In this document: positions 1,832 through 53,008 of the stretch, piece after piece
Layout: each line of letters begins with the position of its first letter
Numbering within the stretch: position 1 is the stretch's first letter
Source of the DNA: Propionicimonas sp.
GTDB taxonomy: Bacteria; Actinomycetota; Actinomycetes; Propionibacteriales; Propionibacteriaceae
Length of the DNA: 64,000 nucleotides
Direction: 5' to 3'
NCBI RefSeq assembly: GCF_029975155.1
Contig: NZ_JARKPQ010000196.1
Span: 1-64,000, forward strand
The notes under the pieces: model-generated
What the model was told of the DNA's origin: nothing
Databases searched by the model: none
What the model saw: only the letters and a program-made list of their open reading frames with translations
Position numbers and translations under genes: made by a program

Positions 1832-2272
1832 ATGGACTGGCTGGGCATCACCGAGGTGGTGGCGCTGACGCTGGTCGTCGTGCTGCTGGTACCCGTGGTG
1901 ATGCTCGGCGCCCGCCGACGCTGGCTGTCGCGGCAGGGCGGCCTGTTCGACTGTTCGCTGAGGTTGTCGACGAAGCGTCCGGGCACCGGCTGGGTGCTCG
2001 GCGTGGCCCGGTACTCCGGTGACAACCTGGAGTGGTTCCGGGCGTTTTCCGTCTCGCTCCGGCCGCGGGTGATCTTCCCGCGGTCGCAGTCGAAGGCGGG
2101 CGCGCAGCGCGACCCCGACCCGATCGAGTCGGTCCTGCTGTACGACCAGCAGCGGATCCTGCGGATGGAGCTTGCCGACGGCGACTCCTGGGAGTTGGCG
2201 ATGTCCGTCGCGTCCCTGACCGGCCTGCTCAGCTGGCTGGAGTCCGCGCCCCCGGGCGCCCGCTATCGCTGA
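1832..2272 (+). CDS. DUF2550 family membrane protein
   Basis: Protein of 146 residues with one hydrophobic N-terminal segment (about residues 8-26) followed by RRR and a cytoplasmic PH-like domain with SLRPRVIFPRS and YDQQRILRMEL. DUF2550 proteins sit directly behind atpC in many actinobacteria; their function is unknown. Here it follows atpC by 18 bases and is probably the last gene of the atp operon. Its stop codon TGA is the first three bases of a dispersed palindrome (2270-2302), so the repeat has landed exactly at the gene end. Confidence 0.85.
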   Translation: MDWLGITEVVALTLVVVLLVPVVMLGARRRWLSRQGGLFDCSLRLSTKRPGTGWVLGVARYSGDNLEWFRAFSVSLRPRVIFPRSQSKAGAQRDPDPIESVLLYDQQRILRMELADGDSWELAMSVASLTGLLSWLESAPPGARYR

Positions 2273-2366
2273 ACAGAAAGGGGACGGGTCCCTTTCCGTT
2301 CAGCGTCCGCTTCTCCCCGGCCGAACGGCGAAGTGAACAGAAAGGGGACGGGTCCCTTTCCGTTCA
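2270..2366 (+). repeat. Two copies of RAYT-flanking palindrome, family A
   Basis: Copies at 2270-2302 and 2334-2366 read TGAACAGAAAGGGGACGGGT and continue CCCTTTCCGTTCA. Each is an imperfect palindrome of 33 bases with TGAAC/GTTCA ends and a central GGGACGGGTCCC. They lie downstream of the transposase gene 2389-3186 in the opposite orientation to the pair on its other side. They are likely REP elements mobilised by that transposase, and may also act as a bidirectional terminator. Confidence 0.85.
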
Positions 2367-2388
2367 TCGTCCGCACCGCGAACCCGCA

Positions 2389-3186
2389 TCAGGGTCGAGC
2401 GATCTCGGCCGGCCCGGGCCTCCGTCCGGACACCTGCAGTCTCCGGACGGACGAGGTGCTCAAGCCGGTGATTCGGGCGATCTGCTCGTAGGGGACGGAC
2501 CTGGTCCGCAGCTCGCCGACGGCGTCCCGTCGGAGGGCTGGGTCGAGCCGGGCGAACTCGGCGGGTTCGGCGCTGCCGCAGATCCGGCGCAGGAGGCTCG
2601 CGACTTCGTCGTCGGTGTGGCGTGGTGGACGACCGATGCGCGCGGGCTCCAGTTGCGGAACATCCACGACGGGGTCGTGGGACGCGGCGCTCAGTGCGTC
2701 GGGCGGCACCAGTCTGCGCAGCTGGGCCGCGTCCGCAACCGACAGGCCGCCGTCGAAGAACCGGCAGCTGCTCCACTCGTAGTGCTCGGCGCGGGCAACC
2801 ATGCCGGCCTTCACCGGGTTGTGCCACACGTAGCGCACCAGGGTGACCAGCTGGGCGTCCGACTCCACCGGCACACTTCTGAACCGGTTCTGGAACACGT
2901 AGCCTACCCGTCCGTACTTGCGGTTGAACCAGCCTGCGTACCTGACGCCCAGTCGCTGCATCACTTTGCCGATCGGCTCGTCGCCGGTGCGGAGGACGAG
3001 GTGCACGTGGTTCGTCATCAGGCAGTAGGCCAGCACCGTGCAGCCGGAGAGCTCGCGGGTGCGAGCGAGGACGAACAGAAAGCGCTCGCGGTCCTCGTCG
3101 TCGAGGAAGATGGCATCGCGATTCACCCCCCGAACCATGACGTGGTAGATGCCAGTTCCGGCCACTTGCCTCGCTCGTCGCGACAC
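2389..3186 (-). CDS. REP-associated tyrosine transposase (RAYT, Y1/IS200-like)
   Basis: Single-strand DNA transposase of the HUH/Y1 class, the kind that processes REP palindromes. It has YHVMVRGVNRD at the N-terminus, the HUH motif in MTNHVHLVL, and the conserved YVWHNPVKAG segment expected to carry the catalytic tyrosine. A C-terminal extension ends in a helix-turn-helix-like stretch (ITGLSTSSVRRL). The chosen GTG at 3186 has AGGAGG just upstream and gives 265 residues; an in-frame ATG at 3222 has no ribosome-binding site. Two family A palindromes lie on each side in opposite orientations, the arrangement known for RAYT/REP pairs. The gene looks intact. Confidence 0.9.
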   Translation of the reverse strand: MSRRARQVAGTGIYHVMVRGVNRDAIFLDDEDRERFLFVLARTRELSGCTVLAYCLMTNHVHLVLRTGDEPIGKVMQRLGVRYAGWFNRKYGRVGYVFQNRFRSVPVESDAQLVTLVRYVWHNPVKAGMVARAEHYEWSSCRFFDGGLSVADAAQLRRLVPPDALSAASHDPVVDVPQLEPARIGRPPRHTDDEVASLLRRICGSAEPAEFARLDPALRRDAVGELRTRSVPYEQIARITGLSTSSVRRLQVSGRRPGPAEIARP

Positions 3187-3296: not shown

Positions 3297-3364
3297 TGAA
3301 CGGAAACGGACCCGTCCCCTTTTCGTTCAGGTGAACGGAAACGGACCCGTCCCCTTTTCGTTCA
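3297..3364 (-). repeat. Two copies of RAYT-flanking palindrome, family A (inverted)
   Basis: Copies at 3297-3329 and 3332-3364 are nearly identical, start TGAACGGAAACGGACCCGTC and end CTTTTCGTTCA. They are in reverse orientation relative to the pair at 2270-2366, so the transposase gene is bracketed by inverted pairs. The last three bases (TCA, 3362-3364) supply the stop codon of the adenosyltransferase gene on the minus strand. Confidence 0.87.
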
Positions 3365-4012
3365 CTCGCCGGTGATTCGGGTGCGCTGCTTGCGGGCTCG
3401 GGGGTCGGTGACCTCGCGGTCCTTGCCGGGGACCCAGAGCACCTCTCCGGACGCCTGGCCGGCCAGGCGGGCGAGGATGAACAGCAGGTCGGAGAGGCGG
3501 TTCAGGTAGTGCAGGGCGAGCGGGTTGACGCCGCCGGGCCGGTCGTCGGTGGCGGGCTCGGTCCCGTAGACCTCCGCGGCTGCCCAGCCGGCTCGCTCGG
3601 CACGGCGGACGACGCTGCGCGCCAGGTGCAGGAAGGACGCGGTCTGGGTCCCGCCGGGCAGGATGAACGATCGCAGCGGCGGCAGCGGGTCGCCGAACTC
3701 GTCGCACCACGCCTCGAGGCGGTCGATGTAGGGCTGGACGATCCGCAGCGGCTCGTACGGCGGGTTCTCCGCCAACGGGTTGGACAGGTCGGCGCCGCAG
3801 TCGAAGAGCTCGTTCTGGATGTGCCGCAGCACCGCCCGCACCTCGTTGGGGAGGTCGGGCTGGGTGGTCACCAGGCCCAGGACGGAGTTCGCCTCGTCCA
3901 CGTGCCCGTAGGCCTCCACGCGCGGATCGGTCTTCGCGGCCTCCGACATGTCCGAGAGGCGGGTCCTGCCGGCGTCCCCGGTGCGGGTGTAGATGCGGGT
4001 GAGGTTGACCAT
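3362..4012 (-). CDS. pduO: PduO-type ATP:cob(I)alamin adenosyltransferase
   Basis: Transfers the adenosyl group of ATP to cob(I)alamin, making coenzyme B12 for enzymes such as methylmalonyl-CoA mutase. The 216-residue protein has the family ATP-binding start YTRTGDAGRTRLSD and EAYGHVDEANSVLG, the FILPGG motif near the middle, and RRAER and LNRLSDLLFILAR in the C-terminal helices. This is the PduO/MMAB family, not CobA. It has no ribosome-binding site, but TAGGTT ends six bases before the ATG, suggesting a leaderless transcript. The stop codon lies inside a family A repeat. With mce at 9395 it supports a B12-dependent propionate pathway. Confidence 0.92.
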   Translation of the reverse strand: MVNLTRIYTRTGDAGRTRLSDMSEAAKTDPRVEAYGHVDEANSVLGLVTTQPDLPNEVRAVLRHIQNELFDCGADLSNPLAENPPYEPLRIVQPYIDRLEAWCDEFGDPLPPLRSFILPGGTQTASFLHLARSVVRRAERAGWAAAEVYGTEPATDDRPGGVNPLALHYLNRLSDLLFILARLAGQASGEVLWVPGKDREVTDPRARKQRTRITGE

Positions 4013-31519: not shown

Positions 31520-31525
31520 GCCTCC

Positions 31526-31660
31526 AGCAGGACCGTTCGTCGAGCAGAACCGTTCGTCGAGCAGGACCGTTCGTCGGCAGGAACCGTTCGTCGGCAGGAA
31601 CCGTTCGTCGAGCTTGTCGAGACGTGAGCGTGGGCGTCTCGACGGGGCTCGACGAGCGGT
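31526..31660. repeat. Tandem CCGTTCGTCG units and hairpin, family C
   Basis: Five imperfect units of 16-18 bases (GCAGGACCGTTCGTCG and variants) run from 31526 to 31610. They end in CGTTCGTCGAGCTTGTCGAG (core shared with 28606-28661 and 60821-60876), which is followed by an inverted counterpart CGTCTCGACG...CTCGACGAGCGGT at 31636-31660. It can fold into a long hairpin downstream of ligA. Confidence 0.78.
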
Positions 31661-35393: not shown

Positions 35394-36970
35394 GCGGCAC
35401 CGCAGAGAGCCTGTTGCGGACCACGGCGGCCGAACTCGCCGGACGGATCGCCGCCGGCGAGCTCAGCGCGCGCGAGGTGACCCGGGCCCACCTGGACCAG
35501 ATCGGCGCCGTCGACGGCGAGATCAAGGCCTTCCTGCACGTCGACACCGAGCGAGCGCTGGCGGCCGCCGATGCCGTCGACGCCCGGCGGGTGGCGGGGG
35601 AGCCGCTTGGCCCGCTCGCCGGTGTCCCGCTGGCGATGAAGGACATCTTCACCATGAAGGGCGCGCCCACCACCTGCGGCTCGCGGATCCTGGAGGGCTG
35701 GGTCCCACCCTACAACTCGACCATCACCGACAAGCTGCTCGACGCCGGCGTGGTGGTGCTCGGCAAGACCAACATGGACGAGTTCGCGATGGGCTCGTCC
35801 ACGGAGAACTCGGGCTTCTTCACCACCCACAACCCGTGGGACACCACGCGTATCCCCGGTGGCTCCGGCGGCGGCTCGGCGGCCGCCCTCGCCGCGTTCG
35901 AGGCCCCGCTGGCGATCGGCACCGACACCGGCGGCTCGATCCGGCAGCCCGCGTCCGTCACCGGCACGGTGGGGGTGAAGCCCACCTACGGGGCCACGTC
36001 CCGCTACGGCGTGGTGGCGATGGCGTCCTCGCTGGACACCCCCGGCCCCTGCGCGCGCACCGTCCTCGACGCGGCCCTGCTGCACAGCGTGATCGCCGGC
36101 TGGGACCCCCGGGACTCCACCTCGATCAACGCCCCCGTCCCGGACGTGGTCGGCGCCGCCCGCGCCGCTGATGTCGCCGGGATGCGGATCGGCGTGGTCA
36201 CCGAGTTCGGCGGCGAGGGCTACCAGCCCGGGGTGGAACAGCGGTTCCGCGAGGCGCTGGCCGTGCTGGAGGGCCTGGGCGCGGAGATCGTCGAGGTCTC
36301 CTGCCCGCACTTCGACTATGCATTGGGCGCCTACTACCTGATCATGCCGAGCGAGGTGTCCAGCAACCTCGCCCGCTTCGACGCCATGCGCTACGGCCTG
36401 CGGGTCGGGGACGACGGCGTGAACAGCGTCGAGGACGTGATGAACCTCACCCGCGGAGCCGGCTTCGGTGCGGAGGCCAAGCGCCGGATCATCCTCGGCA
36501 CCTACGCCCTCTCCTCGGGGTACTACGACGCCTACTACGGCTCGGCCCAGAAGGTGCGCACGCTGATCTCGCGCGACTTCGACGCCGCGTTCGAGCGGGT
36601 GGACGTGCTGGTCTCGCCGTCCACGCCGACCACCGCGTTCACCATCGGCGAGCGGGCGGACGACCCCCTGGCGATGTACAAGGCCGACCTGTGCACGATC
36701 CCGGCGAATCTGGCCGGGAACTGCGCGGCGTCGATCCCGTGCGGGCTGAGTCCGGACGACGGGCTCCCGGTCGGCTTCCAGGTGATGGCGCCGGCCCTGG
36801 CCGACGACCGGCTGTACCGGGTGGGTGCCGCGCTGGAGCGCGAACTGACCGGACGGTGGGGTGGCACGCTGCTCGACCAGCTGGCCGACTCACCCTCCGG
36901 CGCCTACTTGAACCTTCCACCGTCATCCCGGCGAACGCCGGGATCTCCGAGCGACGGGAGCGCACGATGA
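35390..36970 (+). CDS. gatA: Glutamyl/aspartyl-tRNA amidotransferase subunit A
   Basis: Glutamine amidase subunit that supplies ammonia to convert Glu-tRNA(Gln) and Asp-tRNA(Asn). The 526-residue protein carries the amidase signature and the Ser-cisSer-Lys triad: Lys84 (AMKDIF), Ser159 (GGSGGGSAA) and Ser183 (GGSIRQPAS). The normal family end is near residue 505. The last ~16 residues ([15 protein letters not shown]) are encoded by a dispersed repeat at 36922-36950, giving a basic, Ser/Pro-rich tail. The stop overlaps gatB (ATGA). Confidence 0.96.
36922..36950 (+). repeat. Family B palindrome inside the gatA end
   Basis: GT, then CATCCCGGCGAACGCCGGGA, then TCTCCGA; the core CCCGGCG-aa-CGCCGGG is a hairpin. 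It is translated as the GatA tail. The same 29 bases recur at 50759-50787 between trpC and trpB. Confidence 0.87.
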
Positions 36971-50718: not shown

Positions 50719-50787
50719 GTCATCCCGGCGAACACCGTGTCATCCCGGCGAACGCGGTGTCATCCCGGCGAACGCCGGGATCTCCGA
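50719..50787 (+). repeat. Family B repeats, three tandem units
   Basis: Units at 50719-50738 (GTCATCCCGGCGAACACCGT), 50739-50758 (GTCATCCCGGCGAACGCGGT) and a full 29-base copy at 50759-50787. The third equals the sequence in the gatA end. The 20-base period suggests unequal amplification of the half-site. They lie between trpC and trpB in the operon. Confidence 0.85.
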
Positions 50788-50822: not shown

Positions 50823-52079
50823 GTGAATAGGGGCGTGACCCCTTTCCCGTTGCCTGACGCGGCCGGACACTACGACGTCTTCGGTGGCCGCTACGTGCCC
50901 GAGGCACTGGTTGCCGCGCTCAACCAGCTCGAGGCGGAGTTCGACACCGCGATGGGGGACCCGTCCTTCTGGCGTGAGCTGGACGACCTGCGCCGCAACT
51001 ATTCCGGTCGGCCCACCCCGCTCACGGAGGCGCCGCGGTTCAGCCGGCACTGCGGCAACGCGCGCGTCCTGCTCAAGCGGGAGGACCTCAACCACACCGG
51101 CTCGCACAAGATCAACAACGTGCTCGGCCAGGCGCTGCTGACGCGGCGGATGGGCAAGACCCGGGTGATCGCGGAGACCGGCGCGGGGCAGCACGGCGTG
51201 GCCACCGCGACCGCCGCGGCGCTGCTGGGCATGGAGTGCCGGGTGTACATGGGCAGGGTCGACACCGACCGGCAGGCGCTCAACGTGGCCCGGATGCAGC
51301 TGCTGGGCGCGGAGGTGATCGCGGTCGAGTCCGGCAGCCAGACGCTGAAGGACGCGATGAACGAGGCCATGCGCGACTGGGTGGCCAGCGTGGACAACAC
51401 CCACTACCTGATCGGCACGGTCGCCGGCCCGCACCCGTTCCCGAAGATGGTCAAGGAGTTCCACCGGGTGATCAGCACCGAGATCCGCGAGCAGATGCTG
51501 GGCCGGTTCGGGCGGCTGCCCGACGCGGTCGCGGCCTGCGTGGGTGGTGGCTCGAACGCGATGGGCACCTTCGCCGACTTCATCGACACCCCCGAGGTCG
51601 CGCTGTACGGGTTCGAGGCCGGCGGGGAGGGCGTGGAGACCGGACGCCACGCCGCGGCCATCCAGGGCGGCTCGATCGGCGTCCTGCACGGCATGCGCAC
51701 CTACATCCTGCAGGACGATGACGGCCAGACGATGGAGTCGCACTCGATCTCCGCCGGGCTGGACTACCCCGGCGTCGGGCCCGAGCACTCGTGGCTCGCG
51801 GCGACGGGCCGCGCGGCCTACGAGGCGGTGACGGACGCGGAGGCGATGGCGGCGTTCGAGTTGCTGACGAGGACCGAGGGCATCATGCCGGCGATCGAGT
51901 CCGCGCACGCGCTGGCCGGGGTGATCCGGCTGGGCCAGCGGCTGGCCGTCGAGCAGCCCGAGGCCGAGCCGACCATCGTGGTCTGCCTGTCCGGTCGCGG
52001 CGACAAGGACGTGGACACCGCGATCACCTACTTCGGACTCACCGGCAAGCCCGACGCGACCACCGGAGGTGTGAAGTGA
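50823..52079 (+). CDS. trpB: Tryptophan synthase beta chain
   Basis: PLP subunit that joins indole and serine to make tryptophan. The 418-residue protein has the PLP lysine Lys96 in HTGSHKINN, the glutamate of ETGAGQHG, the phosphate-binding GGGSNAMG, and the C-terminal CLSGRGDKD. It starts at GTG 50823 with GGGAG upstream, 123 bases after trpC because repeats lie between. It overlaps trpA by four bases (GTGA). Confidence 0.96.
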
Positions 52080-53008
52080 CCGCCGAACGAAAAGGGGACG
52101 GATCCTTTTCCGTTCACCCCGGACCGAGTGCCGAACCGTCCCCGGTCTCGTTCCGGCCCGGCTCAGAACCGGGGACGGTTCCTCTCTCGGTCCACTCTTC
52201 CGCTTCGGCCTTCGCCGCCGCGCGGGCCGAGGGTCGTGGCGCCCTGGTCGGCTACCTGCCGGTCGGCTACCCGTCCGTGGCGGGTTCGCTCGCCGCGCTG
52301 AAGGCGTTGTGCGGCGAGGGCGGGGACGGGCCGGGCGTCGACCTGGTCGAGATCGGTCTGCCGTACTCCGACCCGATGATGGACGGGCCGGTGATCCAGC
52401 GTGCCGGGACCAGGGCGCTGGAGCGCGGCGTCCGGACGCGGGACGTGTTCGCGGCCGTCGAGGCCGTCCGCTCGACCGGGACGCAGGCCGTGGTGATGAC
52501 CTACTGGAACCTGGTCGACCGCTACGGTGTGGACGCGTTCTCGCGCGACCTCGCCAACGCCGGCGGCTCCGGCCTGATCACGCCGGACCTGATCCCCGAC
52601 GAGGCGGACGACTGGCTGGCCGCCTCGGAGGCGCACGGGCTCGACCGGATCTTCCTGGTGTCGCCCTCGTCCACCGACGAGCGGATCGTCGCGACCGCGA
52701 AGGCGGGCCGCGGCTGGCTGTACGCGACCTCGGTGATGGGCGTGACCGGAACGCGGTCGTCGAGCCCGACCGCCGCCCCCGACCTCGTCGCCCGGATCCG
52801 CGCGCTCGCCCCGGAGACCCTCGTCGGCGTCGGCCTGGGCGTCTCGAACGGGGACCAGGCCGCGGACGTCTGCACCTACGCCGACGCCGTGATCGTCGGC
52901 TCGGCGTTCATCAAGCCGCTCCTGGCGGCCGACGACGCCGGCACACCCGATGACCTCACCGGGATGCGCGCGGTGCTGGCCGATCTGGTCGCCGGCGTGC
53001 GTCGCTGA
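52076..53008 (+). CDS. trpA: Tryptophan synthase alpha chain with repeat-encoded N-terminal extension
   Basis: Splits indoleglycerol phosphate into indole and glyceraldehyde 3-phosphate and channels indole to TrpB. The catalytic residues are Glu92 ([11 protein letters not shown]) and Asp103 (MMDGPVIQ); in Salmonella they are 49 and 60. The 310-residue protein is thus about 40 residues longer at the N-terminus. Codons 4-39 lie entirely in two dispersed palindromes (52085-52116, 52121-52193), and the usual start begins at [13 protein letters not shown]. The GTG at 52076 couples with the trpB stop; an internal start near codon 40 cannot be excluded. Confidence 0.92.
52085..52116 (+). repeat. Family A palindrome inside trpA
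   Basis: GAACGAAAAGGGGACGGATC then CTTTTCCGTTCA, a copy of the RAYT-flanking element. It lies just behind the trpA start codon and is open in the trpA frame ([11 protein letters not shown]). Confidence 0.87.
52121..52193 (+). repeat. Palindromic element, family E, inside trpA
   Basis: GACCGAG...GAACCGTCCCCGGT (52122-52146) pairs with ACCGGGGACGGTTC...CTCGGTC (52168-52192) around a 21-base loop. The right arm is shared with 19179-19201. It also reads through in the trpA frame. Confidence 0.75.

Follow-up and report, generated by a model that had tools for sequence, protein, structure and literature searches.

In-frame REP-type palindromes between the start codon and the conserved domain of trpA in a Propionicimonas genome

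Results

Genes at the trpB-trpA junction

The window, i.e. the whole 64,000-nt stretch of DNA that was analysed, lies on contig C19 of a Propionicimonas sp. genome (G000), a metagenome-type assembly (5.0 Mb, 404 contigs, 8.31 percent contamination); other G numbers denote relatives, and L numbers denote loci or stretches. It carries trpB (50835..52079, + strand), which has tblastn matches in relatives, followed by trpA (52076..53008, + strand), an open reading frame for a 310-residue product with a GTG start codon. The GTG (52076-52078) overlaps the trpB stop codon TGA (52077-52079) by 4 nt, and a Shine-Dalgarno-like GGAGG (52065..52069, + strand) is found 6 nt 5′ of the start. An ATGA or GTGA overlap of the two genes is kept in 24/24 genus rows, GGAGG or GGGGG precedes it in the listed genus relatives, and the relatives begin TrpA at the same place. 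An earlier note on this DNA had fixed the trpA start by its GTGA overlap with trpB, and these features bear that assignment out. The nearest named TrpA relatives belong to Propionibacteriaceae and allied Actinomycetota and are represented by metagenome genomes, including HGW-Actinobacteria-5, PROP2, PROP3, SCN18, and SJ317.

The product is identified as TrpA by the presence of both the PF00290 domain (residues 46-283, matched from profile position 1, 4.4e-61) and the catalytic Glu and Asp. The conserved domain extends over 52211..53008 (+ strand), with E92 and D103 invariant in 36/36 aligned rows. Compared with the Salmonella catalytic residues, E49 and D60, both are displaced by +43, as had been claimed.

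In-frame palindromes in the TrpA N-terminus

Two palindromic elements lie in frame between the trpA start codon and the domain. The first is a family A REP (52084..52116, + strand) whose core matches GGGGACGGNTCCNTTTCCGTTC with 0 mismatches; the second is a family E inverted REP pair, REPIN-like (52121..52193, + strand), with outer arms of 8 bp and inner arms of 14 bp. After the start codon the order is thus family A, the family E pair, the peptide SSASAF, and the TrpA domain, and together the two families add about 31 residues relative to TrpA of G005 and G014. The mRNA segment 52040-52220 is predicted to fold more stably than 200/200 dinucleotide shuffles (z -4.69). The palindromes had been described earlier as open in frame, and this observation was confirmed.

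A scan of the trpA frame over 52076-52300 found ATG, GTG or TTG codons at 52076 and 52277 only, the latter within the conserved domain, and no ATT, ATC or ATA. The first in-frame CTG (52244) falls within the conserved ALVGYLP and the second (52256) is also inside the domain; a further in-frame GTG lies upstream at 51791, within trpB, and is unused by the relatives. As the next in-frame ATG, GTG or TTG after 52076 sits inside the TrpA domain, the repeats should be translated, and we infer that TrpA is made from GTG 52076 through them. An internal start near 52190, which the earlier note had raised as a possibility, was rejected, there being no candidate codon between 52076 and 52277. That the repeats are left untranslated, with TrpA starting later by a non-canonical route, is very improbable: our codon-usage caller did choose 52277, but this codon and both CTG codons are inside the domain, and the start overlap and Shine-Dalgarno-like motif are conserved. 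The proposal that an essential biosynthetic enzyme took up a repeat insertion as an extension is supported by the lack of a usable later start.

An assembly artefact at the repeat might be suspected from the metagenome-type assembly, its contig number and its contamination. Against this, trpB and trpA are adjacent in the same order as in relatives, the frame is intact, and inserts are found at the same place in five other genomes, which makes an artefact the least credible of the explanations considered. The REP insertion in trpA is real, and its translation would follow from the codon scan.

Predicted structure of the tail and accessibility of the mRNA

In the AlphaFold2 model of TrpA (average pLDDT 88.0), the four blocks of residues 1-40 have pLDDT of 57-63 and secondary structure is absent ahead of residue 43, so that the tail is predicted to be disordered. 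The five best solved chains align to TrpA from residues 43-45, and an earlier alignment, from residue 33, was given by one of 38 solved chains (7a20, an alpha-beta fusion).

Predicted accessibility was compared between the six genomes with inserts described below (carriers) and seven non-carriers. The ranges overlapped for the Shine-Dalgarno site (0.06-0.39 vs. 0.05-0.48) and for the start codon (0.15-0.56 vs. 0.28-0.63), and the lowest two start values, 0.15 and 0.18, belong to the carriers G008 and G012. The earlier note had suggested that the insert may affect TrpA-TrpB contact or translation coupling through the mRNA hairpins. Because of the overlap between carriers and non-carriers, and with a tail that is predicted to be disordered, such effects are possible but unsupported, and altered coupling was rejected as the main reading.

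In a wider form of this idea, the insert is kept for function, its hairpins or the tail tuning trpA translation, mRNA decay or TrpA-TrpB contact. The strong predicted hairpins, the recurrence at one junction and the low start values of G008 and G012 are consistent with it, but the overlapping ranges, the predicted disorder and the absence of the insert from sister species render it unlikely.

Repeat families and RAYT genes

The window also encodes a Y1_Tnp (RAYT) domain (2824..3150, − strand; 5.4e-12), flanked on either side by a pair of family A REPs (2270..2374, + strand; 3297..3365, − strand); it is the likely mobiliser of family A. A second RAYT of the source genome, on contig C313, is flanked by family D2 copies, two at one end and one at the opposite end. 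No RAYT flanked by family E was found in the source genome, and a family E arm agrees by eye in 24/26 bases with the REP beside the G005 RAYT. At up to two mismatches, families A and D2 gave 123 and 186 genome matches, respectively, and the family E core ACCGGGGACGGTTCC gave 26 at up to one mismatch; the match lists may overlap, and the reversed-pattern control gave 0 for each. By eye, the GTAG tag is absent from all three families, and CGTC occurs inside A and E and is absent from D2. With Y1_Tnp genes flanked by families A and D2, and with A, D2 and the E core present in high copy and mainly between genes, the palindromes in trpA are, by their anatomy, REP-type elements associated with RAYTs.

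Genomic placement of the repeats

The usual placement of the repeats was surveyed in 1.19 Mb of the source genome, comprising the window and 60 stretches picked for holding REPs, with gene calls from a home-made caller based on codon usage; scans for the dispersed motifs S, P, and Q were also made, but these motifs do not enter into the cluster counts. Among 117 clusters of A, D2, and E, 101 were intergenic, 15 overlapped a gene end, and 1 lay within a gene. For the stretches examined we thus rejected the notion that REPs are commonly found within genes. The trpA REPs themselves were tallied as intergenic because the caller put the trpA start at 52277. A neighbouring ORF stays open through the repeat in 12/117 clusters, trpA among them; in the other 11 the start assigned by the caller falls after the repeat. 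In G015, 36 of 40 matches to the palindrome family of that genome were intergenic, two were overlapping (one of them trpA), one was near a gene end, and one was inside a gene; a second G015 repeat family was intergenic in 12/12 matches.

The sole within-gene cluster is a family D2 REP (L129:9702-9725, contig C312 of the source genome) located in the linker at the N-terminus of a flavoprotein; the PF01593 match of this protein begins at residue 43, and its ATG overlaps the upstream gene stop by 4 nt. At the six of nine loci read in relatives this linker has other sequence; in G005 it reads IPAEAG, as another repeat type would.

Several further observations concern the ends of genes. In stretches L111-L170 and the window, a called stop coincides with the TGA that ends the REP in 38 cases among 178 A/D2 matches, a count in which both ends of one REP may be included. 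At two G015 loci (L213 and L215) REPs lie at the C-termini of genes, one being read as RTKRGLSPFGP in another frame and one giving the last residues and the stop. Also in G015, a single ORF (L218:8982-11003) fuses an ABC-type ATPase to an amidohydrolase-like protein, both identified by eye; the junction consists of two REP-like peptides, KGDSPLSF and KGDSPLLV, the second of which is identical to the G015 TrpA insert. Two other repeats were seen in the window: GTCATCCCGGCGAA, in the trpC-trpB spacer (50719-50787) and at 36922, is of the same type as a repeat inside G019 TrpA, and tandem 17-nt units of TCGAGCAGGACCGTTCG occupy 31523-31607 amid many other dispersed motifs.

Inserts at the same position in relatives

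Inserts in the trpA tail were found in six of the 24 genus genomes with a readable junction (G000, G015, G008, G012, G017, and G019). In G015 the insert is identical to members of a family present in that genome in 35 exact copies and about 81 at up to three mismatches; this family flanks one G015 RAYT and gave 0 matches in the nine other genomes searched. At up to three mismatches the G008 insert has nine matches in its genome, itself included; the G012 insert has two, and the G017 insert matches itself alone. By eye, the G012 and G017 inserts are unlike the REPs beside the RAYT of their own genome. The inserts of G019 are other repeat types, read as TIPEPVEG and VIPAEAGI, and no Y1_Tnp match was found in this genome; Y1_Tnp is present in 14/30 genus genomes, including all five other carriers. 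These five have GGGGAC inserts with strand, frame, and the peptide xGD(G/S) in common. A TTG within the G015 palindrome is in principle a possible TrpA start.

A motif filter passed over many of 108 loci, and tail lengths were taken from 37 rows. The tail ahead of the domain motif measured 19-31 residues in 30/31 non-carrier rows vs. 33-65 in the six carriers. The dependence of the extension on the repeats, implied earlier, therefore stood in 30 of the 31 non-carrier rows; it did not in L053, with a 39-residue tail and no recognised REP, and G022, outside the tail table, also looks long. The G022 trpA (L020, from a genome 59 percent complete) has one TAG within the match, from a sequencing error or a broken gene.

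When trp blocks from 15 genomes were compared, the GGGGAC core was located in the trpB-trpA gap of five and in other trp gaps twice, once in trpC-trpB of G019 and once inside a gene match of G014, probably by chance. With inserts included, trpB-trpA gaps make up 1044/5559 gap bases; since the site was chosen after the fact, no significance is given.

History of the insert

The distribution of the insert is patchy on the trpB+trpA tree (30 rows), where six changes are needed, at least five of them forced by starred branches, and sister pairs differ in insert state (G008/G005, G017/G013, and G019/G016). This number is no fewer than under shuffled labels, and gain and loss of the insert are indistinguishable on this tree. 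The RAYT tree covers 16 of 21 loci (G011, G004, G008b, G013a, and G005a fell outside the motif filter); in it G015a joins G002b (99/98) and G000a joins G000b (82/85), with 9/13 inner branches open.

Because other repeat families occupy the tail in relatives, more than one event, whether a new hit or a refreshing of the site, probably took place at the trpA start. A single insertion in the common ancestor, retained in frame, with loss from several lineages and overwriting in G015 and in G000, is a less likely alternative; the overwriting would have come from resident REP families through gene conversion, or from a fresh REP inserting onto the earlier copy. The common strand, frame, and xGD(G/S) of five inserts speak for it and were counted against several events, as was the low or single copy number of three, and the G008, G012, and G017 copies look old. 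On the other side, the G015 insert is an exact, lineage-specific copy of a family found in G015 only among 10 genomes, G000 holds two families, the RAYTs G015a and G000a do not group as sisters, the repeats of G019 are of other types, and a single origin would need several losses. We lean towards repeated insertion, perhaps at an old site that keeps being refreshed; a single old event followed by replacement of its repeats is the less favoured reading.

Discussion

We consider it fairly probable that the trpA palindromes represent tolerated REP capture in a disordered TrpA tail, spread by RAYTs and probably occurring more than once. RAYT transposases probably spread the REPs, some of which landed right behind the trpA start codon; the involvement of RAYTs in the trpA insertions is suggested by their association with the repeat families. 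With a 4-nt overlap of trpA and trpB, the junction is without a spacer, and a repeat settling there would therefore become part of TrpA. The REPs would have persisted because the stretch ahead of the first TrpA helix is unconserved and tolerant of in-frame additions, and the tail would be harmless.

The elements resemble REP/REPIN and RAYT (TnpA-REP) systems in being short, high-copy hairpin repeats, single or in inverted pairs, mostly intergenic, and flanking a Y1-type transposase gene. They differ in belonging to actinobacterial families with a GGGGAC core and in the GTAG tag not being seen in A, D2, or E; here, moreover, the REPs appear to be translated in TrpA. Di Nocera et al. 2013 (PMC3733652) describe REPs in frame within conserved genes, two Xanthomonas whose recB genes hold different REPs at roughly one position, and REP ends that supply stop codons, and they doubt many N-terminal intragenic REPs owing to later starts. 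Our case shares with those the in-frame REPs in conserved genes, the REP-supplied stops, and different REPs at one site; it differs in that trpA is without a later start and in that the start of a single gene holds inserts in six genomes. Rickettsia palindromic elements, as summarised in PMC10969869, are about 150 bp, encode a conserved peptide, and are frequent in genes. Compared with that summary, the trpA palindromes are likewise read as inserts in conserved proteins, but at 31-73 bp and rarely in genes they do not belong to that class. PMC8266576 treats REP recognition, and its abstract calls REP spread poorly understood.

Intragenic REPs are thus already known; what is new is that they recur at a single gene start. 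In the literature covered (titles and abstract openings, with most subscription journals outside its scope), we recognised no account of REPs at the trpA start. The trpA start could be a true docking site for RAYT systems, at which copies from different RAYT/REP families were inserted near the same codons and in the same orientation and frame, repeatedly giving xGD(G/S); we regard this as doubtful. If true, it would imply a target rule common to different RAYTs, for which sequence, single-stranded DNA at the coupled junction, or an older REP as bait are candidates.

One gene start with different repeat families in several lineages offers natural replicates for studying REP placement, and it shows how an intergenic parasite can become protein where two genes overlap by 4 nt. 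It also carries a warning that a REP close to an annotated N-terminus is not always extragenic. The trpA case may serve as a small natural experiment in selfish DNA settling within a gene.
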